A stretch of DNA of 35,335 nt from a virus. Both the position numbers and the translations under genes were made by a program. Of the stretch, positions 10,207 to 26,868 are shown piece by piece (position 1 is the stretch's first letter; each line of letters opens with the position of its first letter). Where the stretch lies: the IMG/VR virus record IMGVR_UViG_3300020185_003165, positions 1 through 35,335 of that record; one strand, 5' to 3'. The notes beneath the pieces were generated by a model. It made no database searches. It had not been told where the DNA came from and saw only the letters and a program-made list of their open reading frames with translations.

Positions 10207-12159
10207 TTAAATAGAATTAGGGAAAAATGTTACTTCTGCAAAGCCTTGTAAGTTCATATTTTCTCCTACATTACCATTAGCGCGGAATTGAAAACCGGTT
10301 GAAATGGGGAGTATTTGGATGGTTGTGTTTCCACTACCGAATGATCCCTCAGCTACTGTTGTAGGGCCTGGTGCTGTTCCAGTAATCAAAGCTTGTGGTT
10401 GATTTCCAAATGAATCTACATAAAAGGTTTGTATTTCTTCTATTATAGCTCCAACGTCAGTTGGGGATTGATTATTAGATTTACCTACAGTTAATTTTAC
10501 TAAATAAGTACCAGATTGAACGGCAGATACTTGACCTAAGGAGACAGAATTACCTGCACCAGATGTAAGTATCCCATTAAGCATGTAAGTTCTTCTATAG
10601 GGCTCTATATTACCTGAAGGACCCATACCAAAATAATCTAAATTAGCATCAGATTCAGGGCTAGAATCTAACCTTGCCATAATGTGATTATTATCTGTAG
10701 GAAAATCTATTACTGGGAATGGAACAGATTGACTACTTCTATATAATGCTGTTTTCTGACTAGCAAATGCAGTAGGTATTTGGGAAGTTCCACCCCCACC
10801 ATGATATAAAATACCTCCACCATATGCTTCATTTCCTCCTAAATAAATAATACCGTCACTTCCATTTGCACCTTTTACAGCTAATACTGATGAAGAATCT
10901 TGGTGGTTATTCTGCATTTGGACATATGAATGTATTTCTCCAGCTGTATATCCTAATGGGTAACTAAAAGCAGGTGATGATGAACCAATTGAGGTTTCAT
11001 TGTTACTATTTATTATTATTGCTGAAGATGTTGTTCCTCCAACGCCACCTACCCCAATATTTAATGTAGCACTAGCTCCTACATTTTTATTTTGGATGTA
11101 GCTTCTTCCATTATAATCGTAAGATATATTATTAGATCCTATAACAATACTGGATACAGCACTTGAAGCTGTATAATTGCTTCCAGAAAAATTTATTGAG
11201 TGGACTGCAGATGATGATACTAAGGATGTATTGGTTACACCCCCTCTATAAAGTACAAATTCTGCTGTCGATCCACTTACAATAGTACCGTAAGAAGATG
11301 AGATATAAGTACCCCCATCATACCAAAGAGGATTTGCTGATTCAGCTGTTAAGGCATAAGATGCTGTTTCACTATAAGAAGCAGAAATTGACTCTGTTGC
11401 CCATGATGCAGTTGTTTCTAATATTTTTGTTATATTATTAAAGTTAAGATATAATGGATCGGCCATAACATCTTTATAACCTCCATCAACTGTTCCGGGC
11501 ATAACTAAAACTGGATTGGTTTGATTTGCAATCATATTACTTACTTTAGCCTTATCCGTTACAGAAGCTGTTCCTATTAAATCACCATAAAAACCTACTG
11601 ATGATGTTACAGAGCCACTAACTAAAAGTGTATGATTTGGTGATCCAAAACCCATCTCACCATAAGGCCAATTAATACCAACTTTTTGAAATAAATCTGA
11701 CCCATTATCATTTCTAAGTACTATTGATGCATCAGAAGAAGAGTAATCTATTAAAATAGGAAACTTATTAGTTGTTTGATTTTGTAGAACAAAAGAATCA
11801 GAACTTCCTCCAGCTAACCCTAAATTCCACCTTACATCAGGATTTTTCCACCCTATAGTAGCTGAATCTGCTGCTCCAAATGCTTCTAATAAGATTGTTG
11901 GATCATTTGAAGAGTCATTTGCTTTTAAAGTTAATTTAACTCCAGCTGTTGGAGATGGTGCAGTACCAATCCCCATATGAGTATTATCTGGTAGATAAAC
12001 TGAACCTGATAGTATAGAAGAACCTGTTTGGCTAAATGAGCCTGATTGTTGAATATCATAGGCTATAGTACCTGTAAAAGCATCTATAGATTGAGAAACT
12101 TCAGCGGATTTAACTACTGCTCCTGGTGTTATGCCTGTATTTGAAAGTTTAATTGCCAT
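10207..12159 (-). CDS. Tail fibre-like / virion adhesin protein (650 aa)
   Basis: Ser-, Gly-, Ala- and Thr-rich beta protein with the repetitive ASYSETASYALTAESA motif near residue 260, a motif type often found in fibre-like proteins of marine phages. It also has a DNTHMGIGTAPSPTAG segment near residue 58, resembling the knob/shaft region of trimeric fibres. No signal peptide or membrane segment is present. It begins MAIKLSNTGITPGAV. The setting downstream of three glycosyltransferases and upstream of the sheath operon indicates a late structural protein, probably a peripheral fibre or decoration. The receptor and attachment site cannot be inferred. It is rich in Ser/Thr and so could also be a substrate of the neighbouring transferases. 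Confidence 0.65.
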   Translation of the reverse strand: MAIKLSNTGITPGAVVKSAEVSQSIDAFTGTIAYDIQQSGSFSQTGSSILSGSVYLPDNTHMGIGTAPSPTAGVKLTLKANDSSNDPTILLEAFGAADSATIGWKNPDVRWNLGLAGGSSDSFVLQNQTTNKFPILIDYSSSDASIVLRNDNGSDLFQKVGINWPYGEMGFGSPNHTLLVSGSVTSSVGFYGDLIGTASVTDKAKVSNMIANQTNPVLVMPGTVDGGYKDVMADPLYLNFNNITKILETTASWATESISASYSETASYALTAESANPLWYDGGTYISSSYGTIVSGSTAEFVLYRGGVTNTSLVSSSAVHSINFSGSNYTASSAVSSIVIGSNNISYDYNGRSYIQNKNVGASATLNIGVGGVGGTTSSAIIINSNNETSIGSSSPAFSYPLGYTAGEIHSYVQMQNNHQDSSSVLAVKGANGSDGIIYLGGNEAYGGGILYHGGGGTSQIPTAFASQKTALYRSSQSVPFPVIDFPTDNNHIMARLDSSPESDANLDYFGMGPSGNIEPYRRTYMLNGILTSGAGNSVSLGQVSAVQSGTYLVKLTVGKSNNQSPTDVGAIIEEIQTFYVDSFGNQPQALITGTAPGPTTVAEGSFGSGNTTIQILPISTGFQFRANGNVGENMNLQGFAEVTFFPNSI

Positions 12160-12171
12160 TCTATAATTTTG

Positions 12172-12181
12172 TTATAAATAT
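12172..12181 (-). promoter_or_regulatory. Candidate late promoter element before the 650-aa fibre gene
   Basis: The coding strand reads GATATTTATAACAAAATT, 12 bases upstream of the ATG and touching the stop of the heptosyltransferase gene. It belongs to the recurring element family. Confidence 0.35.
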
Positions 12182-13383
12182 CAAAGAGATTTTTCTAATT
12201 GATGGTTTATAGCAGCAATTACTGTATCTGGTGTTATTGATTTAGTACATTCAAACATTCTATCTGTATCCTTATGATCAGGACACCATTCCCAATCTCC
12301 TGCATCTAATCTTACTCTATTAAAACATCCAGAACATTTATTTTTAGGTGATGATATTCTTTCACAATCTTCAAATTCACTATAAGCTTCACTAAATCCT
12401 GATATCATTACTACAGGGGTTTTTAAAGCCCAAGCTAACCAACTTAACCCACTTCCAATACCAATAAAAGCTTTAGCATTTAACATATCATTAGCTCTTT
12501 CACTTAAAGGGTAATCTCCAGTTTTATCAATAACCCCCGTTAAAGTTCCTCCTAATTTAGAATCATGCCATTTGTCTCCTAATAATTCTTGTGTTATCAT
12601 TACTACTTTATAACCTTTATTATTTAAATAATCTATTATTGTTTGCCACCCTCCTTTATAATTCCAATACTTAGCATGTGCCGACCCATGGGGTGCTATA
12701 ACGACATATTTTCCTTCTATTGTAGATCCTGTATTTTTGAATGTTAGTTTTGGTTTAATTTCTGATTGGTTAACTCCTAAAATTTCACCACTACATTTTT
12801 GTAAACCATGTTTTCTAAAATCTGATATATTTTTATTATAATCTATTTTTTCATCTTCATTATAATGCCACCCAACTTCATACATAGCATATAAGTCAAA
12901 TTGTTCTTCTCCAGGAGTTATAAATTTAATGTTTGGATAGTTTTCCTTAAACATACTGTTATGGAAAGTAGAAACAATTAATTCACATTGGTGCTTTTTT
13001 CTAAACTCTTCAGCAAATGGAAACCATGCTATAGTATCCCCTAAGGCTTTTGAGGCAAAATGAATATAAACTCTTTTGTTTTTTGCATTAAATTTATGTT
13101 CAAAAACAACTGTATTATTTTCTAAATCTATTACTTTAATATTATAATTTATATAATATGTTTTGTTAAATTTAGTCCACATATTATTTGTAATTTCACT
13201 TTCAAAAAGTAATTCTAATGTATTTTGGTCGTAAAATTGGATGTTATATTTTTTATCTATTTTACCTGTAATTTCTAATTTAGCCCCATTAATAAAGTTA
13301 ATGTGGTAAAAGTTAGATTGAGGTTTTGGTTTAATAAGTAATTTAGATAAATTATTATATTCTTGGATTAAAATTTCTTTCAT
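12181..13383 (-). CDS. TibC/Aah-type (BAHT) protein O-heptosyltransferase-like glycosyltransferase (400 aa)
   Basis: A GT-B, GT9-related enzyme matching the autotransporter heptosyltransferase family. An N-terminal beta domain (~1-100) precedes the Rossmann part with ALGDTIAWFPFAEEF (113-127), STFHNSMF and FDLYAMYEVGWHY. The C-terminal half has VVIAPHGSAHAKYWN (227-241) and FIGIGSGLSWLAWA (306-319), then VVMISGFSEAYSEF. Four cysteines, C350, C353, C367 and C379 (CSGC, WCP, FECT), match the iron-finger of TibC. Known members transfer heptose from ADP-heptose to Ser/Thr of bacterial adhesins. It is the last of three linked transferases and abuts the preceding gene with one base between. Its acceptor here is unknown; the Ser/Thr-rich phage fibres nearby are the obvious candidates. 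The donor sugar need not be heptose. Confidence 0.88.
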   Translation of the reverse strand: MKEILIQEYNNLSKLLIKPKPQSNFYHINFINGAKLEITGKIDKKYNIQFYDQNTLELLFESEITNNMWTKFNKTYYINYNIKVIDLENNTVVFEHKFNAKNKRVYIHFASKALGDTIAWFPFAEEFRKKHQCELIVSTFHNSMFKENYPNIKFITPGEEQFDLYAMYEVGWHYNEDEKIDYNKNISDFRKHGLQKCSGEILGVNQSEIKPKLTFKNTGSTIEGKYVVIAPHGSAHAKYWNYKGGWQTIIDYLNNKGYKVVMITQELLGDKWHDSKLGGTLTGVIDKTGDYPLSERANDMLNAKAFIGIGSGLSWLAWALKTPVVMISGFSEAYSEFEDCERISSPKNKCSGCFNRVRLDAGDWEWCPDHKDTDRMFECTKSITPDTVIAAINHQLEKSL

Positions 13384-13384
13384 A

Positions 13385-14341
13385 TTATATAAAATTTTTA
13401 TAAATTTCTAATAAATCTTTTGTTCTGTTTTTCCAGCTTAATTCTTTTCCAGTAGCTACTGCTCTAACTTTATAATAGTCATAGTTATTTATTATATCTT
13501 TTAACCCTACTTCCATGTGAAATATATCACGTGGTGATCTCCAAGCACCATGAAAATCTGTTTCATATTCCCAATTTGCTATTATAGGTAAACCAGCAGC
13601 TGCGGCTTCAATCATAGTTAAATTTGGGTGGCCTGCTTCTAGCATTGTAGGGTGAATAAAAATATCATGTTTGTGATATAATTCTAATAATTTATTGTTG
13701 GGTGTATCAAAGACTAAGTTTAATTTTGGATAATTAAACATTTCTAAATGTTGATTAAAAAATTCTTTATTAAAGTTTGGACCTGCTATGGTTATATCTA
13801 AATTATGTTTTGCTGCTAAAGCTAATCCATATTTAAATCCTTTTCTATCATAACCCTTATCACCAGCTAAACCATTAGCTGCAACCATCAACAGTTTGGG
13901 GTTTGTTATTTTTATAGGATTTGGGTTAGGTGAAGGATAAAATTCATTAACATTAACCCCATGAGAAAAATATTGTGCTTTGGGGTGGTTAAAATAATCA
14001 ACTAAAAATTTACCTGGTAGTAAGGTTAAAAGTGATCCTTCTATAGCTTTTAAATTTTCTTTAAATATATGTGAGTCTTTACCATAATGAAATGCATGGT
14101 GGTCATGAAGTTGGAATATATAGGGTATATTTCTTTCTTGTAAACCAATTGCTAAATTAGCTACATGACAATGTACAATATCAAATTCTCCAAGATTAAT
14201 ATGAGAAGATAATTTGTAGGTAGATTCATGGCCTAGTAATTTTTGATTATTTATAAATTCCCAAATAATTTTTTCAATTGCTCCCCAATTTTTTGGTGGG
14301 ATATCTAACCCACAAGCTGGGTCTACATGGCATATTTTCAT
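13385..14341 (-). CDS. GT4-family glycosyltransferase (318 aa)
   Basis: GT-B-fold retaining glycosyltransferase, compact (318 aa). The N-terminal domain begins MKICHVDPACGLDIPPKNWG followed by AIEKIIWEF, and includes FDIVHCHVANLAIG and YIFQLHDHHAFHYG. The C-terminal, donor-binding domain has LMVAANGLAGDKGYDRKGF, LDITIAGPNF and HDIFIHPTMLEAGHPNLTMI followed by EAAAAGLPIIAN. The usual E-x7-E motif appears in a variant form, with the first Glu two residues early (EAGHPNLTMIE). It overlaps the preceding 903-aa gene by four bases (ATGA) and is followed directly by the TibC-like gene, so all three should be translated together. The acceptor is unknown; building or extending a glycan on a virion protein is the contextual suggestion. 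Confidence 0.88.
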   Translation of the reverse strand: MKICHVDPACGLDIPPKNWGAIEKIIWEFINNQKLLGHESTYKLSSHINLGEFDIVHCHVANLAIGLQERNIPYIFQLHDHHAFHYGKDSHIFKENLKAIEGSLLTLLPGKFLVDYFNHPKAQYFSHGVNVNEFYPSPNPNPIKITNPKLLMVAANGLAGDKGYDRKGFKYGLALAAKHNLDITIAGPNFNKEFFNQHLEMFNYPKLNLVFDTPNNKLLELYHKHDIFIHPTMLEAGHPNLTMIEAAAAGLPIIANWEYETDFHGAWRSPRDIFHMEVGLKDIINNYDYYKVRAVATGKELSWKNRTKDLLEIYKNFI

Positions 14342-17049
14342 TCTCCAGCGTATATTAAAGGACTATTTTCGTCTGTTGTTTTTATTTCTTGCTCAATTAT
14401 ACTAAATCCTGGTAAATGTTTAGTATAAATTTTTTCTGCTGTTCCTACTTTTAATTTAGCTACATTACATACCCACATATCAAAAGCATCCCATTTTGTA
14501 TTTTTAATTTTATCTTGAATAAGTTGTAATTTATTTTTATTTATTAAATAAGATTGTGCAGGTATAAATGGAGATATATTAGTGTATATGTCTTCAATTT
14601 TAGGCCCATTTAAATTACGATTTTGGTAAGGGTTGCCAAATCCTATAATGTCCTGATTATTAGATTTAGATAGATTACTAAAACGATTTAAAGCTTGTTT
14701 TAATTCATCAAATGGGGAATCAACAATAACATCCCCTTCAAAGATTAAAATATAATCATAATCTTTATTATTTTCAGACATAATAGCATTTGTGTGTGCT
14801 TTATAACACCCATAATGTCCTGGTGCTAGTTTATAATATCCTGGTTTGTCTTGAACATCTTCAGGTCTATTACAAGTATCAATTGGGGGTAAGTCAGTCC
14901 ATATTTTATTTATTCTTTGTTCGTATTCTATACCTGTTGATTCACAAAATTCTTTAATATTTTTTACTGATCTTATTTCTTTTTCATTTACATCTGGTTC
15001 TGTAACTAAATGCATTAGTTTAATTTTTGGGTTGTATCTACTTCTATCTCCTTTCCAATTAAACATACCATTATTAGGCATTGTATTTAAAAAATAATCT
15101 TTATTTAAATTAAATTTATGATATTTTACACTTTCTCCAGTATTAGTATCTTTTACATCAAATGTAACTATGATGTTATCATCTAAATCATATTTTACTA
15201 AATCCCAAAATGAAAATTTTCCCCTAACTTCTAGCAATCTATCAATGATAACTTCACCATTTTTTTCTACTGTATAGTAGATATTCTTACTTTCTTTAGC
15301 ATTAGAAATAGTTATCCAAGGACAAAAATGATTATCTACATCTGTAGGAAGTATAGTATAATATTCAATCATTGAATAATCCTCAAATTCAAAATACTTT
15401 TCAGCATCAGATTCAAATTTTTCTTTTGGTTCAATATAGTTATTTATATTATTTTTAAATATATGATAATATAAATTTTCAATACCATTAGATTCAGCCT
15501 CATACTTATCCATAAGACTATTATATTGATTTTCAGTTTCTATAAAATCACAATGTCTTAAAATTGCATCTGGTTTGACTGCAAAGAAATATGTATAATA
15601 ACATTTACCTTCTTGTGCTTCATATTCACCAAAGAAAGTATCATGAGTATTTAATTTTTTAGATATATAATCTATATAACTACTATCTTTAAGAATATAA
15701 TCAAAGTTAATATAGTATAATTTTTCAATCCCTAATTCTTTAGCAAATGTTGCTGGGTTATAGAAGGATGTATAACATGCTGGGCCGTGATATCTATCAT
15801 TATCTTCACCTTTTAAATTTACATGGGTATCATATTGATCATGATACATCCAATAACCTGAGTAGAATGTATGTTTTGTTAATAAATTATTTTTTTCATA
15901 AAAAACATAATCAACCATACCCTGTAATTCCTTTGGAACAGGACAATGTGCGGATATAATTATTTTTCTATTACTGTTTTTTCTTAATGATTTAATACAT
16001 TCTATTGTGGTATCTACTACTGCTTGTGTATTTGGGTAAGTACAAATCACATATGCTTCTTTTTCTTCAACATCTGGGGGTATTATAGAAGGGGTATTTA
16101 GTTGATTTTTAATTAATTTAACGTTCTTATTAAAATCTGCAAAATCTAAATAATTAATTGTATTATAGTCTTCAAAATAATTTTGATAAACTTCTAAATT
16201 ATATAATAGTTGTGGTATTTGATAAGATAAAGCTTCACGTATTACTAGAGGCATTGTTTCTTTATCATTTTTACTTCCTCTAGATGTAAATAAAAATAAA
16301 TCCATTGATTGATAGAAATTATTTACATCAGTTCGTTCACCCCACCAAGTTAAATTAGTTGGTTTATTTTCCATTAAAGGTTCCCAATACCATTTAAAAT
16401 TATCTGCCTGGTTTCCTACACTATGAAATTCATATTCAGGTAATGCTTCAGCATATTCAAAAAATTCTTTTTGGTTTTTTCTAGAAGTAAATAAACCTAT
16501 ATGTAATATATGTTTTTTTGATGGGTCGAGATTTAAGCGTTTTAACGCATTTTCTCTATTAGGTCTGGGGATATATTCAATTGGGTATTCTACCAGTATT
16601 TTAGGTATATCTATGTTTTTATACTGTTCTATTTGCCAGTTTGACACAAACATAAACTTATCTGGTGAGAATATTTTAGTGTCTGTATCCATAGAAGAAT
16701 CATGTGATGTTTCTACTAAAAAATAACTTCTATTTACATCATATAACTTTCGAGCTATATCATCATCCATAAAATACTCAGGAATTTCTTCTAAATGAAT
16801 AATGTCTGGTGTAATCCTATCTATAATATTAAATAATTCACTTTTATCTTCTTCAAGTGTAAAAAATTTATTATTATCTACTAATTCTAATATTTTATTT
16901 TTGGTTACAACTAATTTCCCCCCAGTACAATCTACCCATTCTACTACATATACTTCAAACTCATCTTTAATAAGTTCAATTTTTTTAGTTAAATATTGTG
17001 GGAGTCCTCCTGTTGAAAGATGAGGCGCTATAAATAAGATTTTCTTCAT
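14338..17049 (-). CDS. Multi-domain glycosyltransferase: GT4-like + central domain + GT25-like (903 aa)
   Basis: Three parts can be seen. Residues 1-320 form a GT-B, GT4-like unit: KKILFIAPHLSTGGLPQYL at the N terminus, KKHILHIGLFTSRKNQ (178-193) and an E-x7-E motif, ETMPLVIRE (264-272). Residues ~331-650 form a mixed domain starting EAYVICTYPNTQAVVD and containing KLYYINFDYILKDS (443-456), reminiscent of a GT-A fold, but unassigned. Residues ~672-890 resemble GT25 enzymes: KIKLMHLVTEP, GHYGCYKAHTNAI (744-756) and DYILIFEGDVIVDSPFDE (765-782), with EGD (771-773) in the place of the acidic metal motif. GT25 members include bacterial LPS transferases and animal collagen galactosyltransferases. 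It is first in a coupled three-gene set, preceded by a promoter-like element. Confidence 0.85.
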   Translation of the reverse strand: MKKILFIAPHLSTGGLPQYLTKKIELIKDEFEVYVVEWVDCTGGKLVVTKNKILELVDNNKFFTLEEDKSELFNIIDRITPDIIHLEEIPEYFMDDDIARKLYDVNRSYFLVETSHDSSMDTDTKIFSPDKFMFVSNWQIEQYKNIDIPKILVEYPIEYIPRPNRENALKRLNLDPSKKHILHIGLFTSRKNQKEFFEYAEALPEYEFHSVGNQADNFKWYWEPLMENKPTNLTWWGERTDVNNFYQSMDLFLFTSRGSKNDKETMPLVIREALSYQIPQLLYNLEVYQNYFEDYNTINYLDFADFNKNVKLIKNQLNTPSIIPPDVEEKEAYVICTYPNTQAVVDTTIECIKSLRKNSNRKIIISAHCPVPKELQGMVDYVFYEKNNLLTKHTFYSGYWMYHDQYDTHVNLKGEDNDRYHGPACYTSFYNPATFAKELGIEKLYYINFDYILKDSSYIDYISKKLNTHDTFFGEYEAQEGKCYYTYFFAVKPDAILRHCDFIETENQYNSLMDKYEAESNGIENLYYHIFKNNINNYIEPKEKFESDAEKYFEFEDYSMIEYYTILPTDVDNHFCPWITISNAKESKNIYYTVEKNGEVIIDRLLEVRGKFSFWDLVKYDLDDNIIVTFDVKDTNTGESVKYHKFNLNKDYFLNTMPNNGMFNWKGDRSRYNPKIKLMHLVTEPDVNEKEIRSVKNIKEFCESTGIEYEQRINKIWTDLPPIDTCNRPEDVQDKPGYYKLAPGHYGCYKAHTNAIMSENNKDYDYILIFEGDVIVDSPFDELKQALNRFSNLSKSNNQDIIGFGNPYQNRNLNGPKIEDIYTNISPFIPAQSYLINKNKLQLIQDKIKNTKWDAFDMWVCNVAKLKVGTAEKIYTKHLPGFSIIEQEIKTTDENSPLIYAGE

Positions 17050-17081
17050 ATAACTATTTTTTAAAACTACTTGACAATATA

Positions 17082-17090
17082 ATAAATATT
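17082..17090 (-). promoter_or_regulatory. Candidate late promoter element before the glycosyltransferase set
   Basis: The coding strand reads TTAATATTTATTATATTG about 32 bases upstream of the ATG of the 903-aa gene. It is a slightly divergent member of the recurring element family. The 62-base gap has no terminator-like hairpin. Confidence 0.3.
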
Positions 17091-17111
17091 AATTACATAT
17101 CCAAACTATTG

Positions 17112-17840
17112 TTAAATACCATTAATTTCACTTATGTCTGCTATAGCTACACCATTAACTTCCCCCATGTCACTACTTGCCACTCCATTCATGTCTCCGG
17201 CTGACCATCCTGCTATGTAATTTAAAGTTAATGTCCATCTTGATCTTTGTGTTGCATTTGACATATCACCTAAATAAAAACCATCAAATCCAATACCTGA
17301 GGGTTGAACATTTTGAAAATCATAATTATGGTCTATAATACCAACTCCAAAATTATTTCCATTTTGTATTGCTACTATTGCTGAACTATTTAGGGTTATT
17401 TGTTGGAAACCTGTGGTTTGTGCCCAATTTGTAGAATTACTATAAGCTACAAAAGAAGTAGAAAGAAATTGACTTAAACTTAATGTTGTGTTTGAATTAT
17501 TACTAAAAGCAGTACTACTATCTACTGCTATTACTGGAAGTGCTAAAGCAGTTACCCCTGCCGTTGTAGGACAAGTTAATTCTGCTGAAGTTATTAAAAC
17601 GCTTTGGTAGGCTGTTACATCATACCATATATAATTTCTATATAAGCTATATGATCCTCTACTACCTCCAGTCCAAGCAACACCAATACTTTTAGTAGAA
17701 TTACCTGTTTGAGACACATTTCCTGAAACTGGTGTGCCTGTTCTAATAGAAGTCCAGGAACCTACACCCGTTCTTCTAATATTACCTAAAGCATAGTTAG
17801 AGCTGTTTGTAGTATATGGGGCTAAATTTACTTGAGGCAT
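17112..17840 (-). CDS. Fibre-associated structural protein with C-terminal NGV repeats (242 aa)
   Basis: A beta-rich, Ser/Thr/Asn-rich protein without signal peptide. The body (~1-210) looks like a beta-sandwich: SLYRNYIWYDVTAYQSVLIT, then ISAELTCPTT-like strands and FGVGIIDHNYDFQNV, ending SRWTLTLNYIAG. The last ~30 residues carry three copies of an 11-residue repeat built on hydrophobic-Asn-Gly-Val/Ile (MNGVASSDMGE, VNGVAIADISE, INGI). Such NGV repeats are seen at the ends of phage fibre proteins, where they may form a trimeric tip. It begins four bases after the giant collagen-like gene and is therefore coupled to it, suggesting a partner or tip of that fibre. The carbohydrate-binding possibility is unproven. 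Confidence 0.65.
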   Translation of the reverse strand: MPQVNLAPYTTNSSNYALGNIRRTGVGSWTSIRTGTPVSGNVSQTGNSTKSIGVAWTGGSRGSYSLYRNYIWYDVTAYQSVLITSAELTCPTTAGVTALALPVIAVDSSTAFSNNSNTTLSLSQFLSTSFVAYSNSTNWAQTTGFQQITLNSSAIVAIQNGNNFGVGIIDHNYDFQNVQPSGIGFDGFYLGDMSNATQRSRWTLTLNYIAGWSAGDMNGVASSDMGEVNGVAIADISEINGI

Positions 17841-17844
17841 ATTT

Positions 17845-20800
17845 TTATGAAATTAAGATCCATGTTGGTTCTGGGTTGAAATATAAAACATTAGTTTCTA
17901 TGGAATGTCCTACTAATCTTACATAATCACCAGTAACAAATCCTGTTAATGATTGTGTGAAACCCCCAGGTGTTCTTGAAACATAAACTGGTGCTCCAAC
18001 AGTAAAACTAAAAGTCTTAGATTTAATCATACCTCTTAATATAACATCAACCAATACTCCGGTTGCCTTATATGCAACACCCAATAAATTCTTTGTTGAT
18101 GATAAATCAGCATCTGCTTCATCCCAATTACCAGCACTGTTTAAAGCTACTAATTCAAATTGAGTTACTCCACCTGCATTCCCCCCACCAGTATAAAATT
18201 CCCCAGTAAAACCATCTGCACCTGGGATTAGATATTCAATAAATCCTGTACCATTAATTGCACTTGTATTAGTTAAGTCTGGTTGGTTTTTACCTATTTG
18301 GAATGGGTTTGTAATACCTAATGAAAAATCTGTATTTAATGTAAATGGTGATGCTTGTGTATAATTTGCTCCATTTATCTTAATATTTGCAGCATAATCT
18401 AATGATGTATTATCATCAACCCAAACCTCTAAAGGTGTTCCACTCGCTCCTGAGGCACCGTTTATACCTGATGTACCACTTGTACCATTTTTACCTGAAG
18501 TACCTGAAGTACCTGATGTACCTGATGTACCTGATGATCCTGAAGTACCATCTTTTCCTGATGTACCAGATGTACCTGATCCACCTGAAACACCACCAGC
18601 ACCACCTACACCACTTGAACCAGTTGTACCTGATGATCCTGAAGTACCTGACGTACCTGCTGTTCCGTTTTTACCGCTTGTACCTGAAGTACCTCCTGAT
18701 CCTGAAGTTGCACTTTTACCTGAGGTTCCTGCTGTTCCATCTGCTCCTGATTTACCTGAAGTACCTGCTGATCCTGAAGTATTAGATTTACCTGATGTTC
18801 CTGCTGTTCCATCTGCTCCTGATTTACCGCTTGTACCTGCCGTACCCGTTGAACCTGAAGTATTTGATTTACCTGAAGTTCCTGCTGTTCCATCTGCTCC
18901 TGATTTACCTGAAGTACCTGAAGTACCTGTAGAACCTGAAGTGTTTGATTTACCTGAGGTTCCTGCTGTTCCATCTGCTCCTGATTTACCTGAAGTACCT
19001 GCTGATCCCGAAGTATTTGATACACCTGAAGTACCTGCTGTTCCATCTGCTCCTGATTTACCTGAAGTACCTGCTGATCCTGAAGTATTTGATACACCTG
19101 AAGTACCTGCTGTTCCATCTGCTCCTGACTTACCTGAAGTACCTGTAGAACCTGAAGTATTAGATTTACCTGATGTTCCTGCTGTTCCATCTGCTCCTGA
19201 TTTACCTGAAGTACCTGCTGTACCCGTTGAACCTGAAGAACCTGATGTACCTGAGGTACCTGAGGTATTTGATTGACCTGATAGGCCTCTTGTACCGTTA
19301 GTACCTGAGGAACCTGAAGTACCGGATGTTCCTGAAGTGTTTGATTTACCACTTGTTCCTGCTGTTCCATTTTTACCTGAAGTACCTGATGTACCTCCTG
19401 ATCCTGAAGTTGCACTTTTACCTGAAGTACCTGCTGTTCCATCTGCTCCTGACTTACCTGAAGTACCTGAAGTACCTCCTGATCCTGAAGTTGCACTTTT
19501 ACCTGATGTTCCGGCTGTTCCATCTTTTCCTGATTTACCGCTTGTACCTGCCGTACCTGTTGAACCTGAAGAACCTGATGTACCTGAGGTACCTGAGGTA
19601 TTTGATTGACCTGATAGGCCTCTTGTACCATTAGTACCCGAGGAACCCGAAGTACCTGATGTACCTGAAGTGTTTGATTTACCACTTGTTCCTGCTGTTC
19701 CATTTTTACCTGAAGTACCATTTGTACCTGAACTTCCTGAAGTATTTGATACACCTGAAGTTCCAGCAGTACCATTTTTACCTGAAGTACCTGAAGTACC
19801 TGATGATCCACTTGTAGCGCTTTCGCCACTTTCACCACTACCCCCATCTATACCTGATGATCCTGATGTACCTGATGATCCTGATGTATTTGATTTACCT
19901 GAGGTTCCTGCTGTTCCATCTGCTCCTGATTTACCTGAAGTACCTGCTGATCCTGAAGTTGAACTTTTACCTGATGTTCCTGCTGTTCCATCTGCTCCTG
20001 ATTTACCTGAAGTACCTGTAGAACCTGAAGTATTTGATACACCTGAAGTACCCGCAGTACCATCTTTTCCTGATTTACCGCTTGTACCTGCTGTACCTGT
20101 TGAACCCGAAGAACCTGATGTACCTGAGGTATTTGATTGACCTGATAGGCCTCTTGTACCATTAGTACCTGATGATCCTGAAGTACCTGATGTACCTGAA
20201 GTATTTGATTTACCGCTTGTACCTGCTGTTCCACTTTTACCGGAAGTACCACTTGTACCTGTAGAACCTGAAGTATTTGATTTACCTGAAGTTCCTGCTG
20301 TTCCATCTGCTCCTGATTTACCTGAAGTACCTGAAGTACCTCCTGATCCTGAAGTATTAGATTTACCTGAGGTTCCTGCGGTTCCATCTGCTCCTGACTT
20401 ACCTGAAGTACCTGTAGAACCTGAAGTATTTGATACACCTGAAGTTCCTGCTGTTCCATCTGCTCCTGATTTACCGCTTGTACCTGCCGTACCCGTTGAA
20501 CCTGAAGAACCTGATGTACCTGAGGTATTTGATTGACCTGATAGGCCTCTTGTACCGTTAGTACCTGATGATCCCGAAGTACCTGATGTTCCTGAAGTAT
20601 TTGATTTACCTGAGGTTCCTGCTGTTCCATTTTTACCTGAAGTACCATTTGTACCTGAACTTCCTGAAGTATTAGATTTACCTGAGGTTCCTGCTGTTCC
20701 GTTTTTACCGCTTGTACCTGATGTACCTCCTGATCCTGAAGTTGCACTTTTACCTGAAGTACCTGCTGTTCCATCTGCTCCTGATTTACCTGAAGTACCT

Positions 20801-23800
20801 GATGTACCTGCTGAACCACTTGTTGCACTTACACCACTTGTACCTGATGTACCATCAACTCCACTCGTTCCTGAAGTACCTGAAGTTGCGCTTAAACCAC
20901 TTTCACCTGCTACTCCGTTTGAGCCACTTGTACCCGAAGTACCTGTTGTTCCTGAAGTTGAACTTTTACCACTTGTACCTGCTACTCCACTTTTACCGGA
21001 AGTACCTGCTGTACCTGTTGAACCCGAAGAACCTGATGTACCTGAGGTATTTGATTGACCTGATAAACCTCTTGTACCATTAGTACCTGATGATCCTGAA
21101 GTACCTGATGTACCTGATGTATTTGATTTACCGCTTGTACCTGCTGTTCCACTTTTACCGGAAGTACCTGCTGTACCTGCTGATCCTGAAGTTGAACTTA
21201 AACCTGAGGTTCCTGCTGTTCCATTTTTACCGGAAGTACCTGAAGTACCCCTTGATCCTGATGTACCTGATGTACCTGATGTACCTGATGTACCACTTAA
21301 ATTACTTTCACCTGAGGTTCCTGCTGTTCCATCTGCTCCTGAAGTACCTGAAGTTCCTGAACTTCCTGAAGTTGAACTTAAACCTGAGGTACCTGAAGTT
21401 GAACTTTTACCTGAAGTACCATTTGTACCTGCTGATCCTGAAGTACCTGATTTGCCTGATGTACCTGAAGTGCCATCTTTTCCTGATTTACCTGAAGTAC
21501 CTGCTGTACCACTTGAACCTGCAGTACCACTTAAACCTGATGTGCCTGAAGTTCCATCTACACCTGAAGTTCCTGAGGTTCCTGAAGTTGCACTTAGGCC
21601 ACTTTCTCCTGCCACTCCGTTTGAACCACTTGTACCTGAAGTACCTGTTGTTCCTGATGTATTTGATTTACCACTTGTTCCTGCTGTTCCATTTTTACCA
21701 CTTGTACCTGAAGTACCACTTGATCCTGAAGTTGAACTTAAACCTGAGGTTCCTGAAGTTCCACTTTCACCTGATGTACCTGATGTACCTGAAGTACCTG
21801 AACTTCCTGAAGTATTTGATTTACCTGATGTACCAGCAGTACCATCTTTTCCTGATTTACCACTTGTACCTGAAGTACCTGAACTTCCTGAAGTTGAACT
21901 TAAACCTGAGGTTCCTGAAGTTCCACTTTCACCTGATGTACCTGATGTACCTGATGAACCTGATGTTGCACTATTTCCACTTGAACCTTTTGTTCCATTT
22001 GTTCCGTCTGTTCCTGAAGTACCGCTAGTACCGGATGAACCACTTCCTCCACTTTCACCACTTGTACCTGAAGTACCATCTACACCTGAAGTTCCTGAGG
22101 TTCCTGAAGTTGCACTTAGGCCACTTTCTCCTGCTACCCCATTTGAACCTGATGTACCATTTGTTCCTGTTGAACCTGAAGTTCCTGATTTACCACTTGT
22201 TCCTGCTGTTCCATTTTTACCTGAAGTACCATTTGTACCTGCTGATCCTGAAGTTGAACTTTTACCACTTGTTCCTGCTGTGCCGTTTTTACCTGATTTA
22301 CCTGATGTACCTGAAGTACCTGCTGAACCTGAAGTACCACTTTTACCACTTAAACCTGACGTACCATTTGTTCCGGTTTCACCTGAAGTACCTGATGTAC
22401 CTGCTGAACCACTTGTTGCACTTACACCACTTGTACCTGATGTACCATTTTCGCCTGAAGTACCTGAAGTACCTCTTGAACCTGATGTACCTGATGTACC
22501 AGATGTACCTGATGTACCACTTAAATTACTTTCACCTGATGTTCCTGCTGTACCATCAGCACCACTTGTACCTGAAGTACCTGATGAACCGCTTGTTGCA
22601 CTTACACCTGAAGTTCCTGAGGTGCCATCTACACCTGAAGTTCCTGAAGTTCCTGAAGTTGCACTTAAGCCACTTTCACCTGCTACTCCATTTGAACCTG
22701 ATGTACCTGAAGTACCTGTCGAACCTGAAGTTGCACTTTCTCCGCTTGTTCCTGCTGTGCCTGATTCACCTGATGTACCTGAAGTACCTGTCGAACCTGA
22801 AGTACCTGATGTACCTGAAGTATTTGATTTACCTGATAAACCTCTTGTACCATTAGTACCTGAGGAACCTGAAGTACCTGATGTACCTGAAGTATTTGAT
22901 TTACCTGAAGTTCCGTTTGTTCCTGTTTTACCTGAAGTACCTGATGTACCTGATGATCCTGAAGTTGCACTTTTTCCTGAAGTTCCGTTTGTTCCATCTG
23001 CTCCTGAAGTACCTGAAGTACCTCCTGATCCTGAAGTTGCACTTAAACCTGAAGTTCCGTTTGTTCCATCTGCTCCTGATGTACCTGATGTACCTGATGA
23101 GCCACTTGTACCACTAATGCCACTTGTACCTGAAGTTCCATCTACTCCTGAAGTTCCTGAAGTACCTGAAGTTGCACTTAAGCCACTTTCACCTGCTACT
23201 CCGTTTGAACCTGAAGTACCATTAGTACCCGTTGATCCTGATGTTGCACTTTTACCTGATGTACCATTTGTTCCAGTTTCACCTGAAGTACCTGAAGTAC
23301 CTGATGAACCACTTGTTTTACTTTCTCCTGATGTTCCTGCAGTACCTGATTCACCTGAAGTACCACTAGTACCTGAAGAACCACTTGTACTACTTTCACC
23401 TGATGTTCCTGCTGTTCCATCTGCTCCTGAAGTACCTGAAGTTCCTGATGAACCTCCAGTTCCGCTTACACCACTTGTACCTGATGTACCATCTACACCT
23501 GAAGTTCCTGAAGTACCTGAAGTTGCGCTTAAACCGCTTTCCCCTGCTACTCCATTTGAGCCACTTGTACCATTTGTTCCTGTTGAACCGCTTGTTGCAC
23601 TTAAACCTGATGTACCATTTGTTCCTGTTTCACCTGAAGTACCTGAAGTACCTGCTGAACCACTAGTTCCGCTTTTTCCGCTTTTTCCTGAAGTTCCTTT
23701 TGTTCCCTCTGCTCCTGAAGTACCTGATGTACCTGATGAACCTGAAGTTGCACTTAGACCACTTGTTCCTGATGTTCCATCTGCTCCTGAAGTACCACTA

Positions 23801-26800
23801 GTACCTGATGAGCCACTTTCGCCACTTTCGCCACTTGTACCTGAAGTTCCATCTGCTCCTGAAGTTCCTGAAGTTCCTGAAGTTGCACTTAAGCCACTTT
23901 CACCTGCTACCCCATTTGAACCTGATGTACCTGAAGTACCTGTTGAACCTGAAGTTGCACTTAAACCTGATGTACCTGATGTTCCATCTGCTCCTGAGGT
24001 ACCGCTTGTTCCTGAAGATCCTGAAGTTTCGCTTTCTCCTGATGTTCCTGCAGTACCTGATTCACCTGAAGTACCGCTTGTTCCTGTTGAACCTGAAGTT
24101 GAACTTAAACCACTTGTACCATTTGTTCCATCTGCTCCTGAAGTACCTGATGTACCTGATGAACCTCCTGTACCACTTACACCTGAAGTTCCTGAGGTGC
24201 CATCTACACCTGAAGTTCCTGAGGTTCCTGAAGTTGCACTTAGGCCACTTTCTCCTGCTACCCCATTTGAACCTGATGTACCATTTGTTCCTGTTGAACC
24301 TGAGGTTGCACTTTCTCCTGATGTGCCATTTGTTCCACTTTCACCTGAAGTACCTGATGTACCTGCTGAACCACTTGTAGCACTTTCACCTGATGTTCCT
24401 GCAGTACCAGATTCTCCTGAAGTACCTGAAGTACCTGAAGTACCTGATGATCCTGAAGTTGCACTTAAACCTGAAGTTCCGTTTGTTCCATCTGCTCCTG
24501 AAGTACCACTTGTTCCTGATGAACCACTTGTTCCGCTTTTTCCGTTTGTTCCAGATGTACCATCAACTCCACTTGTTCCTGAAGTACCTGAAGTTGCACT
24601 TAAGCCACTTTCACCTGCTACTCCGTTTGAGCCACTTGTACCATTTGTTCCTGTTGAACCACTTGTTGCACTTAAACCTGATGTACCTGATGTTCCATCT
24701 GCTCCTGAAGTACCGCTTGTTCCTGAAGATCCTGAAGTTTCACTTTCTCCTGATGTTCCTGCTGTGCCTGATTCACCTGAAGTACCACTAGTACCTGATG
24801 AGCCGGATGTTGCACTTTCTCCTGAAGTACCTCTTGTTCCATCTGCTCCTGAAGTACCTGAAGTTCCTGATGAACCTGCTGTACCACTTACACCTGAAGT
24901 TCCTGAGGTGCCATCTGCACCACTGGTTCCTGATGTACCACTTGTAGCACTTAAGCCACTTTCTCCGGCAACACCATTTGAACCTGAAGTTCCATTTGTT
25001 CCTGTAGAACCACTTGTTGCACTTTTACCTGATGTACCTGATGTTCCATCTGCTCCTGAGGTACCACTAGTACCTGAAGAACCACTTGTACTACTTTCAC
25101 CTGATGTTCCCGCAGTACCAGATTCTCCTGAAGTACCTGAAGTACCACTTGAGCCTGATGTTGCACTTTCTCCTGATGTACCTCTTGTTCCATCTGCTCC
25201 TGAAGTACCACTTGTTCCTGAAGAACCACTTGTTGCACTTAAACCTGAAGTACCTGATGTACCATCTGCACCACTGGTTCCTGATGTACCACTTGTAGCA
25301 CTTAAGCCACTTTCTCCTGCTACTCCGTTTGAACCTGATGTACCTGAAGTACCTGTTGATCCTGAAGTAGCGCTTTCTCCTGAAGTTCCGCGTGTTCCAT
25401 CTGCTCCTGAAGTACCTGAAGTACCACTTGAGCCTGATGTTGCACTTTCTCCGCTTGTTCCTGCTGTGCCTGATTCACCTGAAGTACCACTAGTACCTGA
25501 TGAGCCGGATGTTGCACTTTCTCCTGACGTACCTCTTGTCCCATCTGCTCCTGAAGTACCTGATGTACCTGAAGTACCACTTGTACCACTTGAACCTGAA
25601 GTACCTCTTGTTCCATCTGCTCCTGAAGTACCTGATGTACCACTTGAGCCTGATGTTGCACTTTCTCCTGATGTACCTACTGTGCCGCTTTCACCTGAAG
25701 TACCTGAAGTACCACTTGAGCCTGATGTTGCACTTTCTCCGCTTGTTCCTGCTGTGCCTGATTCACCTGAAGTACCACTTGTTCCTGAAGAACCACTTGT
25801 TGCACTTAAACCTGAAGTACCGTTTGTTCCGTTTTCACCTGATGTACCTGAAGTACCTGATGTACCTGATGTACCTGAAGTAGCACTTTCACCTGATGTT
25901 CCTGAAGTACCAGATTCTCCTGAAGTACCATTTGTTCCTGTTGAACCTGATGAACCACTTGTACCTGAAGTACCAGATTGGCCTGCTGTACCACTTGAAC
26001 CTGAAAATCCACTAGTACCACTAGTTGCATTTACATATCCTATAAGACCTGTTGAAGGGTTATATGTTAATAATTCAGGTCTATCTTGTATTGGAGCTGA
26101 TATTATAGAAAAATCATCTCCGGTACCACTTACATCAAATGTACTACTACCGGTTACTGCGAATCCACCTGGAACACCCCCAACTGATCCTGTTATTTGT
26201 GCTGATCCTGAAAATGGAAAAGCATTACCTCCACCAACACCACCATCTGCTAATGTAGGACCTACATATTGGTATGCTGATAAAACGACAGTATCTCCGG
26301 TTGATGGTGAGACTGAATTATCTACGAATTGTATTACACCTGTTTTATAATCAAATTGATAAAAAGCTGAATCTTGTTCAGTACCATTTACTCTAACAGT
26401 AACATTATATCCAGGTGTACCGTTTCCTGCGGGTACATTATCCTCAGTATTTTTAAATGTTAAGGAAGCATCTGAATATTTTGGTGATAAAAAGTTTGTT
26501 TGTTGTCCATCCTGTATAATTTGAGGAGTAACAGCTATTGTAGGATCATGTGCTGATTTTGATATAAAGAAAAATACTTCTGTTTTACTACCATTAACAA
26601 CCGATGATGGTGTTAATTGATGTTGGAAGTGAAACTTTACAATATCAACAGCTGTTAAAGCTGAACCTGATTCTATTGTATCTTGGTTCTGTCCACTACC
26701 AGAATATGGTAAATTATTTAAGGGAACAAAATTTTCTCTTATATAAACATCACCAGCATTAATGTCGAGAGTTCTTGTGAATGCCTCCTGAGCATCAGTA

Positions 26801-26868
26801 CTCTGCTCCATTGTATATCTCTTACTCTGGAGTAATCTATTCGACTTTTTTATTTTATCTAATGCCAT
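17845..26868 (-). CDS. Giant collagen-like (Gly-X-Y) tail fibre protein (3007 aa)
   Basis: Three parts. Residues 1-283 form a globular N-terminal domain (KIKKSNRLLQSKRYTMEQS, then AFYQFDYKTGVIQFVDNS), probably the anchor to the virion. Residues 284-2812 are 843 consecutive triplets with Gly, or a regular substitute, in the first position; X and Y are mostly Thr, Ser, Ala, Glu, Lys, Asn and Asp, and proline is absent except in the final triplet. Residues 2813-3007 form a C-terminal domain (LEVWVDDNTSLDYAANIKIN, GVAYKATGVLVDVILRGMI, DYVRLVGHS) similar to tip domains of phage fibres. If triple-helical, at 0.286 nm per residue, the rod would be ~0.72 micrometres, several times a normal myovirus particle. 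The reading frame is unbroken despite 7.6 kb of repeats. Thr/Ser richness and adjacent glycosyltransferases suggest O-glycosylation. Confidence 0.88.
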   Translation of the reverse strand: MALDKIKKSNRLLQSKRYTMEQSTDAQEAFTRTLDINAGDVYIRENFVPLNNLPYSGSGQNQDTIESGSALTAVDIVKFHFQHQLTPSSVVNGSKTEVFFFISKSAHDPTIAVTPQIIQDGQQTNFLSPKYSDASLTFKNTEDNVPAGNGTPGYNVTVRVNGTEQDSAFYQFDYKTGVIQFVDNSVSPSTGDTVVLSAYQYVGPTLADGGVGGGNAFPFSGSAQITGSVGGVPGGFAVTGSSTFDVSGTGDDFSIISAPIQDRPELLTYNPSTGLIGYVNATSGTSGFSGSSGTAGQSGTSGTSGSSGSTGTNGTSGESGTSGTSGESATSGTSGTSGTSGTSGENGTNGTSGLSATSGSSGTSGTSGESGTAGTSGESATSGSSGTSGTSGESGTVGTSGESATSGSSGTSGTSGADGTRGTSGSSGTSGTSGTSGTSGADGTRGTSGESATSGSSGTSGTSGESGTAGTSGESATSGSSGTSGTSGADGTRGTSGESATSGSTGTSGTSGSNGVAGESGLSATSGTSGTSGADGTSGTSGLSATSGSSGTSGTSGADGTRGTSGESATSGSSGTSGTSGESGTAGTSGESSTSGSSGTSGTSGADGTSGTSGKSATSGSTGTNGTSGSNGVAGESGLSATSGTSGTSGADGTSGTSGVSGTAGSSGTSGTSGADGTRGTSGESATSGSSGTSGTSGESGTAGTSGESETSGSSGTSGTSGADGTSGTSGLSATSGSTGTNGTSGSNGVAGESGLSATSGTSGTSGVDGTSGTNGKSGTSGSSGTSGTSGADGTNGTSGLSATSGSSGTSGTSGTSGESGTAGTSGESATSGSAGTSGTSGESGTNGTSGESATSGSTGTNGTSGSNGVAGESGLSATSGTSGTSGVDGTSGTSGVSGTGGSSGTSGTSGADGTNGTSGLSSTSGSTGTSGTSGESGTAGTSGESETSGSSGTSGTSGADGTSGTSGLSATSGSTGTSGTSGSNGVAGESGLSATSGTSGTSGADGTSGTSGESGESGSSGTSGTSGADGTSGTSGLSATSGSSGTSGTSGAEGTKGTSGKSGKSGTSGSAGTSGTSGETGTNGTSGLSATSGSTGTNGTSGSNGVAGESGLSATSGTSGTSGVDGTSGTSGVSGTGGSSGTSGTSGADGTAGTSGESSTSGSSGTSGTSGESGTAGTSGESKTSGSSGTSGTSGETGTNGTSGKSATSGSTGTNGTSGSNGVAGESGLSATSGTSGTSGVDGTSGTSGISGTSGSSGTSGTSGADGTNGTSGLSATSGSGGTSGTSGADGTNGTSGKSATSGSSGTSGTSGKTGTNGTSGKSNTSGTSGTSGSSGTNGTRGLSGKSNTSGTSGTSGSTGTSGTSGESGTAGTSGESATSGSTGTSGTSGSNGVAGESGLSATSGTSGTSGVDGTSGTSGVSATSGSSGTSGTSGADGTAGTSGESNLSGTSGTSGTSGTSGSRGTSGTSGENGTSGTSGVSATSGSAGTSGTSGETGTNGTSGLSGKSGTSGSAGTSGTSGKSGKNGTAGTSGKSSTSGSAGTNGTSGKNGTAGTSGKSGTSGSTGTNGTSGSNGVAGESGLSATSGTSGTSGVDGTSGTSGESGGSGSSGTSGTSGTDGTNGTKGSSGNSATSGSSGTSGTSGESGTSGTSGLSSTSGSSGTSGTSGKSGKDGTAGTSGKSNTSGSSGTSGTSGTSGESGTSGTSGLSSTSGSSGTSGTSGKNGTAGTSGKSNTSGTTGTSGTSGSNGVAGESGLSATSGTSGTSGVDGTSGTSGLSGTAGSSGTAGTSGKSGKDGTSGTSGKSGTSGSAGTNGTSGKSSTSGTSGLSSTSGSSGTSGTSGADGTAGTSGESNLSGTSGTSGTSGTSGSRGTSGTSGKNGTAGTSGLSSTSGSAGTAGTSGKSGTAGTSGKSNTSGTSGTSGSSGTNGTRGLSGQSNTSGTSGSSGSTGTAGTSGKSGVAGTSGKSSTSGTTGTSGTSGSNGVAGESGLSATSGTSGTSGVDGTSGTSGVSATSGSAGTSGTSGKSGADGTAGTSGKSATSGSGGTSGTSGKNGTAGTSGKSNTSGSSGTNGTSGKNGTAGTSGKSNTSGTSGTSGSSGTNGTRGLSGQSNTSGTSGSSGSTGTAGTSGKSGADGTAGTSGVSNTSGSTGTSGKSGADGTAGTSGKSNTSGSGGTSGTSGKSGADGTAGTSGKSNTSGSTGTSGTSGKSGTAGTSGKSNTSGTSGTSGSSGTNGTRGLSGQSNTSGTSGSSGSTGTAGTSGKSGKDGTAGTSGVSNTSGSTGTSGKSGADGTAGTSGKSSTSGSAGTSGKSGADGTAGTSGKSNTSGSSGTSGSSGIDGGSGESGESATSGSSGTSGTSGKNGTAGTSGVSNTSGSSGTNGTSGKNGTAGTSGKSNTSGTSGTSGSSGTNGTRGLSGQSNTSGTSGTSGSSGSTGTAGTSGKSGKDGTAGTSGKSATSGSGGTSGTSGKSGADGTAGTSGKSATSGSGGTSGTSGKNGTAGTSGKSNTSGTSGTSGSSGTNGTRGLSGQSNTSGTSGTSGSSGSTGTAGTSGKSGADGTAGTSGKSNTSGSTGTSGKSGADGTAGTSGVSNTSGSAGTSGKSGADGTAGTSGVSNTSGSAGTSGKSGADGTAGTSGKSNTSGSTGTSGTSGKSGADGTAGTSGKSNTSGSTGTAGTSGKSGADGTAGTSGKSNTSGSAGTSGKSGADGTAGTSGKSATSGSGGTSGTSGKNGTAGTSGTSGSSGTTGSSGVGGAGGVSGGSGTSGTSGKDGTSGSSGTSGTSGTSGTSGKNGTSGTSGINGASGASGTPLEVWVDDNTSLDYAANIKINGANYTQASPFTLNTDFSLGITNPFQIGKNQPDLTNTSAINGTGFIEYLIPGADGFTGEFYTGGGNAGGVTQFELVALNSAGNWDEADADLSSTKNLLGVAYKATGVLVDVILRGMIKSKTFSFTVGAPVYVSRTPGGFTQSLTGFVTGDYVRLVGHSIETNVLYFNPEPTWILIS
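18433..26019 (-). repeat. 7.6-kb tandem repeat region encoding 843 Gly-X-Y triplets
   Basis: The nine-base unit is GGT followed by two codons, most often Thr and Ser. A 24-residue (72-base) unit is common (GESATSGSSGTSG followed by further triplets). An SNGVAGESGLSATSGTSG cassette occurs eleven times and a GTRGLSG[KQ]SNTSG cassette six times. Ser is coded by both TCA and AGT/AGC at equivalent positions, so DNA copies are more diverged than the protein. Both strands stay free of stop codons over long stretches, giving long meaningless antisense frames. Confidence 0.95.

Follow-up and report, generated by a model that had tools for sequence, protein, structure and literature searches.

The IMG/VR record IMGVR_UViG_3300020185_003165, analysed here over its whole length of 35,335 nucleotides (the 35-kb window), contains a gene for a giant collagen-like fibre followed by a cassette of three glycosyltransferase (GT) genes. 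We discuss the idea, put forward in an initial annotation of this DNA, that the phage uses these enzymes to sugar-coat its own fibre. The same cassette is found at 100% identity in 164-kb records (G001/G002). The fibre, GT and structural genes concerned all lie on the minus strand; the four central ones are given in the order in which they are read, with protein lengths in amino acids (aa).

17845..26868, minus strand: giant collagen-like fibre gene, 3007 aa, with a repeat at residues 284-2812 and non-repetitive N- and C-terminal ends
14338..17049, minus strand: 903-aa multi-domain GT, with a GT4/GT-B domain at about residues 1-322, a middle domain and a C-terminal GT25-like domain at about 675-903
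13385..14341, minus strand: 318-aa GT4-type glycosyltransferase, in a 4-base overlap with the preceding gene
12181..13383, minus strand: 400-aa TibC/AAH-type O-glycosyltransferase (BAHT, P0005), with D116, K238, R296, W315 and iron-finger Cys 350, 353, 367 and 379

Read along the minus strand, the genes for PhoH, a head-tail adaptor, an 846-aa protein, the fibre, a 242-aa protein and the three GTs are followed by those for a 650-aa protein, an 81-aa protein, tail sheath, tail tube, hub and a 987-aa protein, taken for the tape measure on its size and place. As the sheath and tube come after the 650-aa and 81-aa proteins, the cassette is embedded within the structural genes. The 903-aa and 318-aa genes overlap by 4 bases and the 318-aa and 400-aa genes are 1 base apart, so that spacing and order agree with the annotated arrangement of three coupled GTs after the fibre and its next gene. 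Of 151 IMG/VR loci retrieved by means of these enzymes, many truncated at contig ends, 131 show the order large GT, GT4, BAHT, which is therefore not a matter of chance.

Judged by its sequence and modelled fold, the 400-aa protein is a genuine member of the BAHT family, which bears out its annotation as a TibC/Aah-type enzyme. It reaches 336 bits against TIGR04414 (curated cut-off 200), a model matched by 17 of 17 scanned family members at E<=1e-5, and matches TibC in phmmer at 2.3e-63. Alignment to Asp-110, Thr-226, Lys-230, Arg-286 and Trp-305 of TibC located the equivalent residues of P0005: D116, K238 and W315 are kept in 80 of 80 homologues and R296 in 79, and the position of Thr-226 is Ser in all 80. 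The four iron-finger cysteines are conserved in 80/80 as well. The AlphaFold2 model (predicted local distance difference test score 88) aligns with TibC (4rap) at template modelling (TM) scores of 0.80/0.84. Models of lipopolysaccharide (LPS) heptosyltransferases give at best 40.7 bits, with a cut-off of 467. Phage-made ADP-heptose was also considered, but TIGR02198 is uninformative on it: the model matches below its cut-off in 6/13 records (best 306 against 345, in LR756501) and responds in 14/14 controls too.

The proposed substrate is rich in hydroxyl groups. Its repeat comprises 843 triplets, with serine or threonine (Ser/Thr) at X or Y in 767 and at both in 471; together they make up 1249 of 2529 residues, and there is a single proline (Pro). 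The description of a fibre with Ser/Thr in almost every triplet and Pro missing is thus accurate. Gly-Thr-Ser is the dominant pattern, and in triplets beginning with glycine (Gly), Thr is found 410 times at X and 30 at Y, Ser 107 times at X and 523 at Y. The cuticle collagen of the vent worm Riftia, invoked earlier as a precedent, has Gly-X-Thr with Thr in the Y position; since Thr of the fibre sits mainly in X, this analogy fails in detail and the precedent cannot be transferred.

Gly does not occupy every third position without interruption. It is replaced in 85 of the 843 triplets (ATS 42, NTS 27, STS 11), the longest clean run being 30 triplets, and 51 of the 84 gaps between breaks measure exactly 8 triplets (24 residues). 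The Pfam Collagen model (PF01391) has 59 matches in G001, which holds this fibre, the best at 35.3 bits against a cut-off of 27.2; a fibre fragment alone scores 26.9. Among 23 Ser/Thr-type fibres, including that of the window, breaks affect 2-17% of triplets, and the 8-triplet gap is commonest in 18 and second in two, the others being L087, L021 and L020. Breaks make up 0-3% of triplets in eight loci that have an oxygenase discussed below and no BAHT, except L382 (10%), and 0-13% in seven BAHT-fusion loci of the Pro type, where the gaps differ from 8. Such regular breaks could possibly be regular hinges or signs of a non-canonical helix. Were the repeat a plain triple helix, it would extend to about 0.7 µm at an assumed rise per residue.

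Of the other two enzymes, the 318-aa protein is GT4-type. In the 903-aa protein, about residues 1-322 form a GT4-type domain that is clearly matched in structure (VIA-align), the matches listed falling within this first domain. Its C-terminal stretch, annotated as GT25-like, scores 21.6 bits against PF01755, below the cut-off of 24, and 15 of 22 aligned members including the window's match at E<=0.01 (best 2.2e-4). The best PDB match of the whole model by Foldseek E-value (6.4e-12) is the human collagen galactosyltransferase COLGALT1 (GLT25D1), at TM scores of 0.18/0.29 and a root-mean-square deviation of 21 Å; PDB sequence searches with the protein or its profile gave nothing useful and no match to COLGALT1. 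Because the predicted TM score of the model is only 0.46, we treat the fold match as a hint, and from sequence and model a relation to GT25 appears remote at best. By protein length, the domain is absent in 10 of 36 dereplicated relatives. Its presence is associated with fibre lysine (Lys) content (26 with against 10 without the domain, p = 0.007), a comparison small in size and uncorrected for relatedness, and a hint only.

The co-occurrence of collagen-like fibres and the BAHT, for which the initial annotation suggested a survey, was assessed on relatives collected through a gene independent of both.

7262..9856, minus strand: tail sheath, the anchor of the survey blind to fibre and GTs

The viral scans used the best 80 loci of each and the sheath scans at least 600 stretches, and all counts refer to these samples, not to whole collections. 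Collagen was detected as windows of in-phase Gly, which misses broken Pro-type repeats (L309/L315). With at least 9 kb upstream kept, 34 loci (31 dereplicated) remained: eight had both collagen and BAHT, two collagen only, one BAHT only and 20 neither (p = 4.7e-5). Relaxing the limit to at least 7 kb gave 43 loci (38 dereplicated), split 10, 2, 1 and 25. Fibre and enzyme are thus associated among sheath relatives. One of the collagen-only loci, L219, has its BAHT upstream, just outside the fetched stretch, and the BAHT-only locus, L309, carries a Pro-type collagen fragment overlooked by the detector; L157 is the remaining collagen-only locus. PF01391 found no match in eight BAHT-less sheath relatives chosen for contig size (57-191 kb).

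From the side of the enzymes, collagen precedes the large GT in 98 of the 103 loci, not dereplicated, that extend at least 1.5 kb in that direction. The rest comprise L009 and L125, both from one contig and starting 1.5 kb ahead of the GT; L076 and L141, which start 2.7-3.0 kb ahead of it and have further enzyme genes in that interval; and L068, where the collagen lies on the other strand, after the BAHT. A search of 28 whole records for the BAHT found both in 16, BAHT only in one (LR756504), collagen only in two and neither in nine. This tally is a description, not a test, as the cassette was the reason for choosing most of the 16, and its absence from the locus that for choosing eight of the nine; for G015 and G016 the collagen was taken from loci, not from whole records.

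The more striking result, new here, extends the idea beyond Ser/Thr-rich fibres. The loci L042, L065/L131, L093 and L269 combine the full three-GT cassette with a Pro-rich, Ser/Thr-poor collagen and a 2-oxoglutarate (2OG)-Fe(II) oxygenase; a GT2-type protein is present too, as is DUF6445 in all but L269. For a systematic comparison, collagen loci were kept if they extended to the sheath or 6 kb beyond the collagen; shared 5-mers reduced these 166 to 63, L068 not being among them. The oxygenase adjoins none of the 38 collagens with a Ser plus Thr fraction of at least 0.30 and 23 of the 25 below it (Fisher p = 3e-15, ignoring relatedness). The BAHT adjoins 37 of the Ser/Thr-rich and 11 of the Ser/Thr-poor collagens, and all of these 11 come with the oxygenase. 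Anchoring on the oxygenase supplied many of the 23, and anchoring on GTs most of the 38, so that these are not population rates; the absence of any oxygenase-anchored locus with Ser/Thr-rich collagen, and of any Ser/Thr-rich GT-anchored locus with an oxygenase, is unexplained by the anchoring. The pattern looks as though only fibres without ready hydroxyl acceptors required a hydroxylase. In agreement with this, PF13640 and the A3 profile detected no oxygenase in 10 Ser/Thr-type IMG/VR records (two near-identical, four below 60 kb). G001/G002, with the window's cassette, give no match to either model, the animal lysyl-hydroxylase family being outside the search.

Relatedness was considered on two trees. 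On that of the BAHT the oxygenase changes state four times and the independent pairs agree 4/4 (p = 0.125); on that of the sheath there are eight changes and five supported pairs, with a mean of 4.7 agreeing and none against (p = 0.0625).

The oxygenase-anchored scan itself gave 80 loci, 26 after dereplication with at least 2.5 kb upstream, of which 22 carry collagen, counted anywhere on the plus strand of the locus. The remainder are L315 with a broken Pro-type collagen, L355 with a short collagen-like stretch, L317, which starts 0.4 kb before the first GT-like gene, and L394, where no collagen was seen. Two simple rules were rejected along the way. The oxygenase is not confined to Pro-rich collagen, as it also accompanies Lys-rich, Pro-poor fibres and fibres that are neither (L349, L362, L382); and Ser/Thr-poor collagen with the cassette is not always accompanied by it, since the record of L068 has none in its 29 kb, the oxygenase being present in the seven of seven other records checked (L042, L065, L066, L076, L093, L141 and L269; the contigs of L076 and L141 end before any collagen shows). 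A further group of oxygenase-anchored loci (L315-L347) has a GT4-BAHT fusion without the two other GTs: the BAHT is found in 33/33, Pro-rich collagen in 23/33, and the oxygenase is present. Where fibres of the oxygenase group are Pro-rich, Pro lies mostly in X; in animal collagen, hydroxylated Pro occupies the Y position. As side observations, L309/L315, L317 and L318 encode two to four paralogous proteins of about 250 aa, the one scanned having no Pfam match. At L391 (6811-8619) a GT4-type transferase and an OGFOD2-like oxygenase domain are fused in one protein, encoded close to a Lys-rich collagen, and at L068 (8383-10020) a carbamoyltransferase gene is inserted between GT4 and BAHT.

Among GenBank phages the BAHT occurs in 4 of 50,697 records, counted as three distinct ones because two share length and coordinates. 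In the cultured Microcystis phage Mel-JY01 a collagen frame of Gly-Thr/Ser-Ser type, with zero Gly breaks in 149 triplets, adjoins a GT-BAHT fusion. The 735-kb phage LR756501 has a BAHT cassette and Ser/Thr-rich collagens, the second of which contains Gly-Pro triplets as well. The phage of the window likely infects flavobacteria, because the cultured phages listed first by the tail sheath are the Flavobacterium phages immuto and because the cassette is also located on two contigs binned into Flavobacteriales and Winogradskyella metagenome-assembled genomes (L401, L402); L402 carries sheath and tube too and is therefore probably a phage contig. At the edge of the window, a phosphatidylserine decarboxylase-like protein (34249-35016, minus strand; PF02666, 84 bits) adjoins phoH.

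Taken together, we consider it probable that the three GTs O-glycosylate the phage's own collagen-like fibre. The proposal of a sugar-coated fibre draws on the enzyme family, gene coupling, co-distribution, distant recurrence and composition-linked enzyme set, and has to do without the details taken from Riftia and GT25. In the mechanism that we infer, from acceptor and sugar to order of transfer, the cassette would be expressed together with the structural genes, and the fibre would be O-glycosylated in the cytoplasm of the host, either ahead of tail assembly or while it proceeds. The first sugar would be added by the TibC-type enzyme to Ser/Thr of the Gly-Thr-Ser repeat, the long repeat perhaps being threaded through a ring of enzymes by analogy with the proposal for TibC and TibA, and the remaining two GTs would lengthen or vary the glycan. 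Ser/Thr-rich fibres would offer their acceptor hydroxyls ready-made; in sister phages with a Pro-rich or Lys-rich fibre, the added 2OG-Fe(II) oxygenase would make them. The coat might then benefit the virion, for instance in stability, adhesion or shielding.

Parallels exist in several known systems. The gene for TibC neighbours that of a long, repetitive surface protein, and likewise the phage BAHT lies beside the fibre. The phage enzyme resembles TibC of enterotoxigenic Escherichia coli and AAH in family model, fold, the catalytic Asp, Lys, Arg and Trp and the four iron-finger Cys (PMC4358343); unlike these it is encoded by a phage next to a collagen-like fibre instead of an autotransporter, and it differs from TibC in having Ser for Thr-226 and Gly for the selectivity residue Pro-300. 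TibC forms a dodecameric ring, and its long substrate has been proposed to pass processively, in the manner of a screw (PMC4358343). Mimivirus, too, has genes to modify a collagen-like protein of its own: L230 is both lysyl hydroxylase and glucosyltransferase of viral collagen (PMC9614988), and its pairing of hydroxylation with glycosylation is what the gene sets of the sister phages suggest. In contrast to L230, a single bifunctional enzyme acting on Lys in a giant virus, the phage of the window has no such oxygenase in the searches above and uses other GT families. In Clostridioides difficile the GT gene sgtA lies beside the collagen-like gene bclA3, and SgtA places O-linked sugar on Thr of Gly-X-Y repeats and, in test peptides, also on Ser (PMC7157674). 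Unlike the phage fibre, BclA3 is a spore protein with Gly-Pro-Thr repeats, to which SgtA adds N-acetylglucosamine (GlcNAc) from UDP-GlcNAc (PMC7157674). Mycobacteriophage virions are reported to bear glycans, which implies phage GTs (Freeman et al. 2023, as cited in PMC12619734 and PMC11256854); there the targets are capsid and tail-tube subunits and no collagen-like fibre. Among the literature matches listed, seen as titles and abstract beginnings with few subscription journals covered, none describes phage-encoded glycosylation of a phage collagen.

Several observations weigh against glycosylation of the fibre. The cassette also stands beside Ser/Thr-poor collagens and hence is not specific to Ser/Thr richness. 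Consistent occurrence of this GT set in phages without a Ser/Thr-rich fibre had been named beforehand as evidence that would count against the idea, and this is partly seen: the full set of three occurs in L042, L065/L131, L093, L269 and L068, and the BAHT, as the fusion without the two others, in L315-L347, with the oxygenase added in all except L068. There, the cassette accompanies a Ser/Thr-poor collagen (Ser plus Thr 0.16 over 207 residues at the contig end) and no such oxygenase was found in the 29-kb fragment, which may be incomplete. L157/L158 and L180 have collagen without a BAHT on the locus; the records of L157 and L180 contain no oxygenase, and their collagens have Ser plus Thr fractions of 0.23-0.24. 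Related 2OG oxygenases occur in one cyanophage and one pelagiphage with no clear collagen in the 24-25 kb read; the presence of an oxygenase by itself is therefore no sign of collagen. The independent-pair tests are few and their p values are those given above. The collagen frame of Mel-JY01 (1016 aa) is unannotated and runs open to base 1 of the record, its continuation was not seen in the last 6 kb, and opposite-strand GenBank genes overlap part of it. In LR756501 the cassette lies about 165 kb away from the collagens, and LR756504 has the BAHT and no PF01391 match in 636 kb. The oxygenases of both Mel-JY01 (PF13640, no match to the A3 profile) and LR756501 (matched by both) are far from the fibre. 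A convincing ADP-heptose kinase was not found in the IMG/VR records, TIGR02198 being below cut-off and unspecific, and further Ser-rich proteins adjoin the cassette. As a separate observation, a 406-aa protein directly follows the Gly-Ala-Thr-like collagens without BAHT (L157 6299-7519; L180 3356-4576), with no Pfam match for that of L180.

Phage GTs have been read as host-surface or DNA-protecting genes (PMC7029224, PMC10202952). The three enzymes might modify host surface glycans (LPS/O-antigen) against superinfection, their proximity to the fibre reflecting a shared exchange of host-range genes, as proposed for GTs in a pelagimyophage host-recognition cluster (PMC7029224); the GT9 and GT4 families do include LPS enzymes. 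However, the BAHT passes the protein O-glycosyltransferase model and stays far below those of LPS heptosyltransferases (336 against 200 and 40.7 against 467 bits). A superinfection device also has no evident reason to track collagen, which most of the examined BAHT-less relatives lack, or to change its oxygenase with fibre composition, and we regard this explanation as unlikely.

Another virion protein could be the target, the fibre being merely linked. Candidates are the sheath, the tube and three neighbours of the cassette:

26886..29426, minus strand: 846-aa protein before the fibre, Ser/Thr-rich by eye, an alternative glycosylation target
17112..17840, minus strand: 242-aa protein, called 'tip' earlier, with similarly placed homologues in some relatives
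10207..12159, minus strand: 650-aa protein encoded immediately behind the three GTs, judged Ser-rich by eye, an alternative target

The 846-aa protein is probably structural, and neither it nor the 650-aa protein has a family match in Pfam or PHROG; the same searches gave none for the 242-aa protein, so the label 'tip' is unverified. Several of these flanking proteins look Ser/Thr-rich, and glycosylation of mycobacteriophage capsid and tail tube is reported (as cited in PMC12619734). Nevertheless, many cassette loci showing collagen have no detected homologue of the 242-aa and 650-aa proteins, and sheath and tube occur in cassette-less relatives too; the 846-aa protein could rarely be judged, as loci seldom extend that far. 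On balance such a target seems quite improbable. Neutral linkage, in which the cassette travels with a fast-exchanging tail-fibre island and serves an unrelated task such as DNA modification, would suit the strong lineage effects and pair tests that miss 0.05, yet is very improbable given that fibre and enzyme recur together in Mel-JY01 and LR756501 under different architectures, and given the oxygenase contrast of 0/38 against 23/25.

If the fibre is indeed the acceptor, phage GTs and oxygenases would gain a concrete substrate, namely the phage's own fibre. There would be a phage protein-glycosylation system aimed at collagen, extending the TibC family beyond autotransporters, and natural pairs of collagens and modifying enzymes would become available for studying how Pro-free collagen is stabilised; the cultured Mel-JY01 makes the reading directly testable. 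In a wider sense, which we put forward tentatively, aquatic tailed phages may have evolved full collagen-modification pathways apart from animals, each matched to the fibre: a TibC-type ring enzyme would glycosylate Ser/Thr fibres without any prior step, Pro or Lys fibres would be hydroxylated by the phage 2OG-Fe(II) oxygenase before glycosylation, and fibre and enzymes would switch together. An enzyme set that varies with the make-up of the fibre suggests a resemblance to the modification of animal collagen.

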